Below, in pieces: positions 6,008 through 10,077 of a DNA stretch of 11,145 bases. The position numbers were made by a program, and so were the translations under genes. This DNA comes from Verrucomicrobiota bacterium. GTDB taxonomy: Bacteria > Verrucomicrobiota > Verrucomicrobiia > Chthoniobacterales > UBA10450. The number at the start of each line of letters is the position of its first letter. The stretch's first letter is position 1. The notes under the pieces are model-generated. The model made no database searches, was not told the origin of the DNA, and saw nothing but the letters and a program-made list of their open reading frames with translations. The DNA lies in the NCBI GenBank assembly GCA_003219995.1, contig QHRC01000072.1:1-11145 (forward strand), read 5' to 3'.

Positions 6008-8140
6008 ATGAAACATTTCTACCTTTCGATTTTGCTCTCCTTTGTGGCTATCGATCTTTGCGTTGCCGAACTTAAAACCGTCGATGATTTCCGGGCGGCG
6101 GCGGCCAAAGCGAACGCCGTCCTGACTATCCCCGATTGGGAGCAAACCCCGGAAGCGGTCGATGCCGCGATGAAAGACGCAATCGCGAAAGCGAACAAGG
6201 CGCTCGATCAAATCGGCACTCAAGACCCGGGCAAAGTCAGCTTCAAGAGCACCGTCGTCGCGCTCGATGATCTTACCTACGCGGCCGGTCTCGAGGCGAA
6301 TAAGGCCACCGTCATCAAAGAAACAAACACGAATGCGACGATGCGCACTGCGGCGGAAAATGCCGTGAAAATTTTTCAGGATTGGGCGGTCGGCATCGAT
6401 TATCGCGAGGACGTTTACAAAGCACTGAAAGCCTTCGCCGATACTCATCCGAAACTTTCCGGCGAAAACGAGAAACTGTTGTTTGAAACTATGCGCGATT
6501 ATCGCCGAGCGGGCTTGGAACTCTTTCCGGACAAGCGAAAGGAAGTCGAGCAACTGCGCAAGGAATTGTCGAAGTTAGGCACCGATTTCGACACGAATAT
6601 TGTCAACGCCAAAGCGCCGGTCGTTTTCACAAAAGCGGAACTGGATGGCGTTCCAGAAAGCTTCTTCGCTTCACCCGGCGTCAAAACCGGCGAGGACGCC
6701 TACACCGTGATGGCGAATGTCACCTGGCAATTCATAGCGGTGGAGGAAAACGCTAGAAGTGAGGTCACCCGCAAAAAACTTTACGTGATTCACGACAGTT
6801 TGGCGAAAGACACAAACGTTCCCGTGCTCAATCAAATGGTCGCTTTGCGCAACAAGATCGCGCTGCGGCTCGGCTACAAATCGTGGGACGACTACCAAAC
6901 CGAAACGCGCATGGCTAAGACCGGCGCTGGCGCGAAGTCGTACATCGACAATCTCGTCGCCGGTATTCAACCGAAGTTCGACGCGGAAGTTTCCACGCTT
7001 CAAAAAATGAAAGCCGCGCACACCAACGATCCTAGCGCCAGGATCGGCGTCTGGGATTGGCGTTACTACACGAACCAACTCAACAAACAGACGTACGCCG
7101 TCGATAAGGAAGCGCTCCGTGCTTATTTCCCTTTTCAAAAAGCGCTCGAGGGAATGTTCAATATCTATCAGAGCATTTTCGGCCTGAAGTTTGAGAAAGT
7201 CGCCGCGCCCTACAAATGGATCGATGATCTCCAACTTTATCTCGTGACCGATTCGGCCACCGGCGAACCACTCGGCCTTTTTTATCTCGACATGTTCCCG
7301 CGAGAAGGAAAATTCAATCACTTCGCCGAGTTCGAAATCGTCGGTGGAAAAGTTTTGCCGGACGGAAAATATCAGCGGCCGACCGTCGCCTTGCTTTGCA
7401 ATTTCCCTCCGGCGAGTGCGGACAAGCCGTCACTGATTGCGCATAGCGACGTCGAAACGCTCTTCCACGAATTCGGTCACGCGCTCCATTCGATCACCAC
7501 ACGCGCCAAGTATGGCCGTTTTGCCGGGACCAATGTGCCGCGGGATTTTGTCGAGGCGCCCTCACAAATGTTGCAAAATTGGGTCTGGGACAAAAAGGTG
7601 CTCGACACTTTCGCGGCCGATTATCGCGATCCCTCAAAGAAAATTCCGGCCGAGATCGTCAAGAAGATGAACGATGCGAAGCTCGCCAATGCCGGCGTCA
7701 TCTACCGGCGGCAGTTTGCTTTTGCTTCGCTCGATCTCGCGTTGCACGAGCAGCATCCGGAAAATCAGCCCTATGATTGCGTCGCGATGTCCAATCCGAT
7801 TCTCGAAAAAGTTTTTCTGCCGATCGATTCGAGCACGACATTCGTTTCCTATTTCGGACACTTAAACGGGTATGACGGCGGCTACTATGGCTACGCCTGG
7901 GCCGATGCCATTGCCGCGGACATGGCCACCGTTTTTGAAAAATCGAAAGATGGTTATCTGGACAAGCAAGCCGGCTCACGCTTGCGTCATGAAATTTATG
8001 AGCAGGGCGATTCGCGCGACGTGACATTGTCGATCGAGAAATTCCTCGGCCGCAAACAATCGATTGAGCCGTTTTTGAAAAAGATCGGCATCGGCGGCGA
8101 AAGGAAAGACAAAGCTGGGCCTTCGCAGGAAAGCAGATAG
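6008..8140 (+). CDS. Secreted M3-family oligopeptidase (Dcp/OpdA-like)
   Basis: Zinc metallopeptidase (710 aa) of clan MA family M3, which cuts short peptides. The active site is HEFGH at 487-491 within TLFHEFGHALHS, with E516 (in RDFVEAPSQ) 25 residues further on as third zinc ligand. H617 in SYFGHL and the Tyr-rich GYDGGYYGYAWAD (621-633) match the transition-state-binding region of the family. The N-terminal part (25-400) is the helical substrate-channel half. I chose the ATG at 6008 because it gives a short signal peptide (about 20 residues, likely cut after CVA), whereas the open frame upstream to 5801 runs through marC in antisense. There is no lipobox (D and L precede C18), so a periplasmic or secreted soluble enzyme is inferred. 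Whether it acts as an oligoendopeptidase or a dipeptidyl carboxypeptidase cannot be told from sequence. Confidence 0.95.
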   Translation: MKHFYLSILLSFVAIDLCVAELKTVDDFRAAAAKANAVLTIPDWEQTPEAVDAAMKDAIAKANKALDQIGTQDPGKVSFKSTVVALDDLTYAAGLEANKATVIKETNTNATMRTAAENAVKIFQDWAVGIDYREDVYKALKAFADTHPKLSGENEKLLFETMRDYRRAGLELFPDKRKEVEQLRKELSKLGTDFDTNIVNAKAPVVFTKAELDGVPESFFASPGVKTGEDAYTVMANVTWQFIAVEENARSEVTRKKLYVIHDSLAKDTNVPVLNQMVALRNKIALRLGYKSWDDYQTETRMAKTGAGAKSYIDNLVAGIQPKFDAEVSTLQKMKAAHTNDPSARIGVWDWRYYTNQLNKQTYAVDKEALRAYFPFQKALEGMFNIYQSIFGLKFEKVAAPYKWIDDLQLYLVTDSATGEPLGLFYLDMFPREGKFNHFAEFEIVGGKVLPDGKYQRPTVALLCNFPPASADKPSLIAHSDVETLFHEFGHALHSITTRAKYGRFAGTNVPRDFVEAPSQMLQNWVWDKKVLDTFAADYRDPSKKIPAEIVKKMNDAKLANAGVIYRRQFAFASLDLALHEQHPENQPYDCVAMSNPILEKVFLPIDSSTTFVSYFGHLNGYDGGYYGYAWADAIAADMATVFEKSKDGYLDKQAGSRLRHEIYEQGDSRDVTLSIEKFLGRKQSIEPFLKKIGIGGERKDKAGPSQESR

Positions 8141-8176
8141 GTTGTGACCGATTGACTGCCGAAGCCAGCCGGAGCG

Positions 8177-8340
8177 GCGATCAAGCGGCGGCGGTATCGC
8201 GCATTTCAGAAGGCCAAAGCTATTCTTCTCGATTAAGCACCGATTCTTCCCGTTTATTTTTACACCCACACATTTCTGATTCGCCCGAATGTGAAAGGTT
8301 GGTATCCCACAATCCTCGATCATCTTCCTTACAAATGCAC
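8177..8340 (+). pseudogene. Decayed 3' end of an OppA-like peptide-binding protein gene
   Basis: In the frame beginning at 8177, translation gives KRRRYRAFQKAKAILLD, a TAA stop (8234-8236), then APILPVYFYTHTFLIRPN and VKGWYPTILDHLPYK (to 8335). This resembles the C-terminus of family-5 extracellular solute-binding proteins (OppA/DppA type), where the sequence typically runs like RY..FQKAEAILLDEAPILPVYFYT...VKGWYPT.LD..PYKY. The stop sits exactly where a Glu is usual, so one GAA/GAG to TAA change explains it. The rest of the roughly 500-codon gene is absent: the M3 peptidase ends at 8140, and no similarity is seen at 8141-8176. After PYK the usual YVYL ending is replaced by an unrelated tail. 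Identification rests on remembered family sequence, without a search. Confidence 0.72.
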
Positions 8341-8400
8341 CCCGCGGGTCTATGACCGCAGGAATTTGCGACATTCAGAGAGCGCCGCTACAGAAGAGAT

Positions 8401-10077
8401 ATGAAAGCGACCTGCTGTTTTCTCGCGATCATCTTCGCCACTACCATGCCGATCTTGGCCGGCAATCCAGAGGATCGGTTAAAGCCGGCGCTAGATGTAA
8501 TCACGCCCGACGGTTTGCTCGCGCACATCAAAGTGCTCAGCTCCGATGAGTTCGAGGGCCGCGCACCGGGCACAAAAGGCGAAGAGCTTTCCCTCAAATA
8601 TATCTCCGATCAGTTCAGGTCCATCGGCTTAAAACCGGGAAATCCGGACGGCAGTTTCACCCAGGAAGTGCCGCTCGCCGGAATCAAGAGCGATCCGCGG
8701 ATGATATTCGTCGTAAATGGCCAATCAACGGAACTGAAATATCCGGATGACTTCGTCGCGTCGTCGGCGCGATTGCAACCTGAGATCAAGATCAACAATT
8801 CCGACATCGTGTTCGTCGGTTACGGAATCGTCGCGCCGGAGTATGGCTGGGACGATTACAAAGACGTCGATGTCCGGGGCAAAACGATCCTGATATTGAT
8901 TAACGATCCACTTATTCCAGATCCGAAAGATCCGTCCAGGCTCGATGAGAAGATGTTCAAAGGAAAAGCGATGACTTATTACGGCCGCTGGACTTACAAG
9001 TACGAAATCGCCTCGCAAAAAGGCGCGGCTGCGGCCGTGATCATTCATGAAACCGAGCCGGCGGCGTATCCCTACTCAGTCGTAAAGACAAGTTGGGCGA
9101 AGGAGAATTACGAGCTCGATGCACCGGACAAGAACAAAAATGCAGTGCAAGTGCGTTCATGGATCGCGCTCGATGTCGCGAAAAAGCTGCTGACTGATTG
9201 TGGCCAGGACTTCGATTCGCTCAAGAAAGCTGCGATCACGAAAGAATTCCGACCGGTGCCGTTGAGCGCAAAAGTTAGCGTCGCGATCAAGCAACAACTT
9301 CGCTCAGTCAAATCACACAACGTCATCGGCAAATTCGAAGGGAGCGACCCGAAATTAAAAGCTGAGTATGTCATTTATACCGCGCACTGGGACCATCTCG
9401 GGCGTCATCCGGAGCTGCAGGGCGACCAGATTTTCAATGGCGCGGTCGACAATGCCTCGGGCGACGCAGCGGTGATTCAACTCGCGGCGGCCTTTTCAAA
9501 ATTGAATCCGCCACCGAAACGCTCGATTCTCTTCATGTGCACGACCGCGGAGGAAGCGAATCTGCTCGGTGCGCAGTTTTATGCGACGCATCCACTTTAC
9601 CCGCTCGAGAAAACGCTCGCAGACATCAACATCGACGGCGTGAATCCATGGGGCAAAGCCCGTGATATCGAGGATCTTACCGACGGTAACTCGACGCTCG
9701 ATGACTTGTTAGGCCAGGCCGCGACGCAGCAGGGCCGCGTCATGAAACCGAACAGTCAGCCGGAAAAGGGCGGCTTCTATCGCGTTGACAGTTTCGAATT
9801 TGCAAAAGCCGGCGTTCCTTGCCTTGGCACGGCTGGAGGCATCGACATCATTAGCAAGCCGTCGGAGTACGGAAAACAAAAACGCGATGAGTATATCGCA
9901 AAGCATTATCATCAACCATCTGATGAAGTTGACCCGACGTGGGACCTCTCCGGCGCGGTGCAAGATGTCGATCTTCTCTTCGAAGTCGGCTATCAAGTCG
10001 CCAACGCCGACAAATTCCCCGAATGGAAGCCAGGCGCCGAGTTCAAGCCGAAACGCGACGCGATGATAAAAAAATAA
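8401..10077 (+). CDS. Secreted M28-family zinc aminopeptidase with PA-like insert
   Basis: Di-zinc exopeptidase (558 aa) of family M28, removing N-terminal residues from peptides. A signal peptide ends near residue 20 (PILA-G). Metal and catalytic residues follow the family order: H329 (TAHWDHLG), D350 (GAVDNASG), E384 as general base and E385 as ligand (TAEEANLLG), D412 (NIDGVNPWG) and H504 (HYHQPSDE). Residues about 110-260, between the N-terminal part and the catalytic core, resemble a protease-associated (PA) domain (SDIVFVGYGIVAPEYGWDDY, then GKTILILINDP and the GAAAAVIIHE stretch). All key residues are present. AGAAGAG lies just before the ATG and is one of the few plausible Shine-Dalgarno sequences in the window. 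The gene ends in tandem stops TAA-TAG. It lies directly after the oppA-like fossil, whose frame reads 4 nt into it. Substrate preference cannot be told. Confidence 0.95.
   Translation: MKATCCFLAIIFATTMPILAGNPEDRLKPALDVITPDGLLAHIKVLSSDEFEGRAPGTKGEELSLKYISDQFRSIGLKPGNPDGSFTQEVPLAGIKSDPRMIFVVNGQSTELKYPDDFVASSARLQPEIKINNSDIVFVGYGIVAPEYGWDDYKDVDVRGKTILILINDPLIPDPKDPSRLDEKMFKGKAMTYYGRWTYKYEIASQKGAAAAVIIHETEPAAYPYSVVKTSWAKENYELDAPDKNKNAVQVRSWIALDVAKKLLTDCGQDFDSLKKAAITKEFRPVPLSAKVSVAIKQQLRSVKSHNVIGKFEGSDPKLKAEYVIYTAHWDHLGRHPELQGDQIFNGAVDNASGDAAVIQLAAAFSKLNPPPKRSILFMCTTAEEANLLGAQFYATHPLYPLEKTLADINIDGVNPWGKARDIEDLTDGNSTLDDLLGQAATQQGRVMKPNSQPEKGGFYRVDSFEFAKAGVPCLGTAGGIDIISKPSEYGKQKRDEYIAKHYHQPSDEVDPTWDLSGAVQDVDLLFEVGYQVANADKFPEWKPGAEFKPKRDAMIKK

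Follow-up and report, generated by a model that had tools for sequence, protein, structure and literature searches.

What fills the 260 bases that separate two peptidase genes in the genome of a Verrucomicrobiota bacterium? The window, by which we mean the whole 11,145-nucleotide stretch of DNA that was analysed (contig QHRC01000072.1 of assembly GCA_003219995.1; G000 among the genomes compared here), carries an M3-family and an M28-family peptidase gene, one behind the other, and a sequence-only reading had taken the gap between them for the C-terminal end of an OppA/DppA-type peptide-binding protein with an internal stop. With the evidence taken as a whole, the best explanation, of which we are all but certain, is that the gap contains what is left of an oppA pseudogene, oppA being the gene for the periplasmic oligopeptide-binding protein of the OppABCDF importer. 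The locus is laid out as follows:

6008 to 8140, + strand: M3-family peptidase gene, oligopeptidase A/Dcp-like, the upstream neighbour (Pfam Peptidase_M3, E = 1.6e-110)
8146 to 8336, + strand: oppA pseudogene remnant, matching codons ~524-587 of the 591-codon frame in G002, a genome of the same genus; roughly the last tenth of the gene
8364 to 8400, + strand: leader of the M28 gene, conserved with G001 (also of the same genus) and containing half of the interspersed repeat AGCGCCGCTACAG
8401 to 10077, + strand: M28-family peptidase gene, the downstream neighbour (Pfam Peptidase_M28, E = 2.7e-39)

The M3 gene starts with the ATG at 6008; its top NCBIfam model is oligopeptidase A, with a score under the cut-off of that model, and the N-terminal leader of its product looks by eye like a putative signal peptide. 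The M28 protein has matches in 68 of the 83 genomes of the family.

The remnant's frame reads ...RYRAFQKAKAILLD, then an internal TAA, then APILPVYFYTHTFLIRPNVKGWYPTILDHLPYK. Compared with the last 75 residues of the OppA protein of G002, the six-frame translation of the gap scored 230, whereas the best of 300 mononucleotide shuffles reached 43, bearing out the proposed identity of the frame. Searching the genome with the G002 protein recovered the remnant at E = 9.7e-24 and 81% identity with one TAA within the match, and the DNA of the remnant is identical to G002 oppA at 162 of 191 bases (85%). The homology begins at 8146 and not, as first proposed, at 8177. A protein database search with the remnant, made with a tool restricted to proteins of similar (that is, short) length, returned eight proteins (E = 1.5e-21 to 9.1e-14), one of them labelled by its source as 'oligopeptide transport system substrate-binding protein'. 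The expected Pfam match did not appear: scanning the remnant gave no SBP_bac_5 (PF00496) match, and nothing at all up to E = 1, because the model covers residues 133-514 of the G002 protein and so ends upstream of the retained piece.

The pseudogene case rests on the lesions described below and on the unbroken gene in the sister genome. G002 has an open 591-codon frame (L111:3518-5290, stop to stop) exactly between its M3 gene, which ends at L111:3514, and its M28 gene, which starts at about 5379. Its product, predicted to bind oligopeptides, is recognised both by Pfam as a member of the SBP_bac_5 family of oligopeptide ABC importers (E = 9e-89) and by NCBIfam, whose best model is OppA (E = 3.6e-119); at 399 of 947 bits it falls under the cut-off of the NF011684 OppA equivalog and is thus OppA-like rather than that equivalog. 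Of this gene the window copy has lost ~88%, and what it retains is interrupted by a frameshift and a stop. The comparison with sister genomes that the sequence-only reading had suggested thus gives a clear answer, as an unbroken oppA also lies between M3 and M28 in G005, G057 and G077; the TAA reported for the oppA match in G057 is the stop codon of the M3 gene ahead of it. A contig of G011 ends inside oppA. In G060 oppA adjoins M28 with no M3 gene in the 4.1 kb before oppA, so an M3 neighbour is not universal.

Measured against these relatives, the window copy is broken in four ways:

8145/8146, no strand: deletion junction, where the 5 bases past the M3 stop codon are fused to the interior of oppA
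near 8190, + strand: 1-base insertion (frameshift), placed by alignment columns against the relatives aligned there
8234 to 8236, + strand: in-frame TAA, GAA to TAA
8337 to 8363, + strand: diverged stretch in the alignment, in which the final oppA codons and stop are unrecognisable

The junction is exact: the alignment to G001 runs on through 8145 and the alignment to G002 oppA begins at 8146. By the measure of G002, where 1569 bases separate the M3 stop from the right break, the deletion is ~1.57 kb in size and took ~88% of oppA. The sequence-only reading was therefore right that most of the gene is gone and that it went by deletion and point decay; it had found the stop and overlooked the insertion. 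Its statement that the stop stands where a Glu is usual holds for five of the eight aligned relatives, but the other three have Asp. As the comparison shows, an illegitimate deletion starting just behind the M3 stop removed the bulk of oppA in the window's species, and the frameshift, the nonsense change and the loss of the terminus accompany it, in no implied order. The left side of the junction corresponds in G001 to the start of a palindrome, TTGTAGCGGCGC...GCGCCGCTACA. The palindromic repeat, with an 11-base core CGCCGCTACAG / CTGTAGCGGCG, is present at 8383-8393 of the window and in relatives, and 13 copies of the core were counted in 272,910 bases from 46 loci that overlap in part, where base composition predicts 0.23; the break position therefore falls at an interspersed repeat. 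The inverted repeats found in 8100-8460 come to a single weak 15-nt pair.

If the gene is free of coding constraint, its changes should no longer favour third codon positions. Changes were counted at sites with agreement among at least four of five further relatives, of which G092 carries a broken copy. The fossil alone has changed at 4 first, 9 second and 2 third codon positions, and G002 alone at 1, 2 and 7, respectively. Pooling positions 1 and 2 against 3 gives 13:2 for the fossil and 3:7 for G002 (p = 0.009) with the diverged last codons included, and 7:1 versus 3:6 (p = 0.05) within 8146-8336, where they are excluded. Sites past the insertion alone give p = 0.23, and leaving out G092 gives p = 0.07 (three of four agreeing) or 0.52 (four of four). 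The signal is weakened because it leans on the diverged last codons; with few changes and an underpowered test, its direction is suggestive of, and would fit, relaxed constraint.

The lesions also bear on two other accounts of the gap. A metagenome assembly artefact, with an intact oppA in the living population, would suit a fragmented bin of 285 contigs that is 77% complete; we regard it as very improbable, as several lesions (deletion, insertion, stop and lost terminus) are unlikely to come from one misassembly and as relatives carry different lesions at the same place. A small new gene in the retained C-terminal frame is more improbable still. Past the stop the frame is indeed open to 8400, but it is interrupted by the stop and the frameshift, it has no ATG and by our reading of the sequence one GTG, and the lesions vary between species, the frames upstream of the retained end differing in G095 and G083.

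Decay of oppA is not confined to the window's species. Across 83 family genomes, a genome search matched OppA in 10 and missed the remnant in G083. Six genomes keep oppA (G002, G005, G057, G060, G077 and G011, where it is cut by the contig end), and five carry different broken remnants (the window's genome, G001, G083, G092 and G095), a tally of 6 unbroken to 5 broken that depends on bins 53-100% complete, among which genomes with no match may lack contigs. The other remnants take distinct forms: in G001 residues 60-88 are fused to the last 16 (~20 codons in the DNA alignment), in G092 the gene is full length with frameshifts, in G095 the last ~46 codons alone persist, and G083 holds an internally deleted copy. 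There may be more oppA remnants in the family beyond these five. As G002, in the same genus, is unbroken, the earlier suggestion of a recent loss holds in the sense of a loss within the genus.

Loss in the window's lineage, rather than gain in its relatives, is the most likely direction. In G026, G036 and G037, members of other families of the order, M3 is the immediate neighbour of OppA (three of seven outgroup loci, with short flanks), and an OppA relative is present in 13 of the 14 genomes compared from within the order but outside the window's family; both observations argue that oppA was lost here and not gained elsewhere. In an OppA tree of 14 rows, G002 groups with G077 and G092, G005 groups with G057, and the family sequences fall together, a topology that agrees with vertical descent in a tree with open forks and one long row. 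The M28 protein tree has 45 rows, with 11 of 42 inner branches open, and the oppA label needs four changes on it among rows of known state. The window M28 stands apart from G001 and G002 in this tree, and we did not count losses from it because the C-terminal part of the window M28 has a different history. On this account an ancestral locus contained M3, oppA and, in the window's family, M28. The two peptidases would have cut peptides outside the inner membrane, next to the protein from which the importer receives oligopeptides.

Could the remnant have been kept as working DNA, with an M28 promoter or leader lying in the old 3' end of oppA and deletions stopping short of it? Four remnants (the window, G001, G083 and G095) retain the 3' end close to M28, as do two metagenome proteins, P0007 and P0008, that resemble internally deleted OppA copies, and conservation with G001 is good over the last ~37 bases ahead of M28 (86 of 97 bases are shared in the alignment of 8364-8460). 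Searching with the C-terminus as query, however, favours finding C-termini. Moreover, M3 and M28 are adjacent, 8-266 bases apart and with no oppA match between them, in 18 genomes of the 45-row tree set, and in 17 of these (all but G010) a comparison of the gap with the OppA C-terminus gives a score no higher than those of its shuffled versions, so that the old coding end is not required. A scan of 8050-8450 for sigma-70-like promoters and terminators, other promoter types lying outside its scope, found neither, and Rfam gave zero matches across the window. We therefore consider a retained function for this DNA unlikely, and read it as the end of a decayed oppA.

The sequence-only reading had described a peptide-degradation and uptake locus that lost its transporter subunit. 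This stands for oppA itself, but the rest of the transporter is found at another locus: only the binding-protein gene stood between M3 and M28. The arrangement is seen in G005, which carries oppB-oppC-oppD-msrB-oppF on a different contig from oppA; its binding-protein gene is thus apart from oppBCDF and beside peptidase genes. OppB at 75% identity or more is present in 9 of the 83 family genomes and OppC in the same 9, G001 having an OppB-like match of 28% only; oligo_HPY exceeds its cut-off in 12 family genomes, in two of which (G064 and G092) the matches are C-terminal pieces only. The window's genome has no OppB, OppC or oligo_HPY match, which in a genome 77% complete falls short of proving their absence. 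G002 keeps oppA and likewise has no OppB, OppC or oligo_HPY match in a genome 73% complete; either contigs are missing, or the binding protein may have a role by itself. Conversely, G058, G059, G023 and G061 have the permease and no oppA in the genome search.

This second locus has decayed as well. Among msrB neighbourhoods (40 loci around msrB-like genes, from 33 of the 83 genomes), isolated OppD/OppF pieces, with the remainder of the gene gone, occur near msrB in G003, G014, G064, G092 and G095; G083 likewise has such a piece beside a methionine sulfoxide reductase gene, and weak inverted pieces of 26 residues occur in G001 and G014. Pieces of oppD/oppF by a methionine sulfoxide reductase gene are thus found in six genomes, with a weak one in a seventh (G001). 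In G003, of the window's genus, the oppF remnant (L203 2369-2584, - strand) runs from a Walker-A piece directly to the C-terminus and adjoins two methionine sulfoxide reductase genes. The msrB contig of the window's genome ends 137 bases past the second msrB, so its OppD/OppF state there is not assessable. As the differing lesions in these sequences show, Opp has been lost more than once in the family, at both opp loci, while the neighbouring genes were retained.

One possible reason for the dispensability of Opp is replacement by POT carriers. POT/PTR2 carriers exceed the cut-off in 80 of 83 family genomes, the window's included; G095, which has Opp remnants in a bin 68% complete, has no PTR2 match. 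POT is also present in genomes with an unbroken Opp, and so it is a background or permissive condition and not a correlate of loss. Under such a scheme, peptidases outside the inner membrane would cut peptides small, the proton-coupled POT would import the products, and the ATP-driven Opp would become dispensable and free to decay during genome shrinkage. Opp is an entry route for toxic peptides and some antibiotics. It is conceivable, though quite unlikely, that the repeated loss was adaptive and not drift, and that giving up Opp while keeping external peptidases and POT would protect abundant soil Verrucomicrobiota against peptide toxins; were this true, parallel selection would have left the remnants at both loci as its scars.

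Taken as an object, the feature in the window is an ordinary pseudogene. Its wider setting is a clear case of repeated, multi-stage Opp loss across one family of soil Verrucomicrobiota at two loci; within that family the copies range from unbroken through frameshifted and half-deleted to vanished. The relatives of the window locus are recorded as Verrucomicrobia, Spartobacteria and Chthoniobacterales. Gene loss and pseudogenes are known from 'Ca. Udaeobacter', a small-genome, free-living soil member of the Chthoniobacterales; the present case differs in that it is ABC import of peptides that has gone, with peptidases and POT carriers retained. The main text of PMC7343977 does not contain the word 'oligopeptide'. 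Passages of PMC3640971 and PMC6117150 report second opp operons and hence offer no precedent for Opp loss, and among titles and abstract openings we found no literature report of Opp loss in this Verrucomicrobiota group. For soil bacteria that are known from metagenome bins, the remnants show where a nutrient-uptake system was lost, and they allow testing whether peptide uptake shifted from ABC import to POT during genome shrinkage. They also caution that peptidase-rich gene sets do not prove oligopeptide uptake.

Several side observations concern the flanking genes. Residues 1-400 of the window M28 are closest to its own genus (92% to G001), and residues 401-558 are closest to genus g5 (84% to G078; window 9601-9960); this mosaic is probably a recombination product. 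The M28 of G001 (L112) is some 31 residues shorter, and the window counterpart of the missing part includes ADINIDGVNPWG, which presumably holds a metal ligand of this peptidase family; the G001 enzyme may be decaying too. In L031, L032, L036, L040 and L065 the M3-M28 gap measures 1.8-2.4 kb and contains an open frame of 564-573 codons, split and with masked bases in L040. By the searches made this frame is not OppA, and its ending resembles that of a frame upstream of the MarC-like gene in L115.
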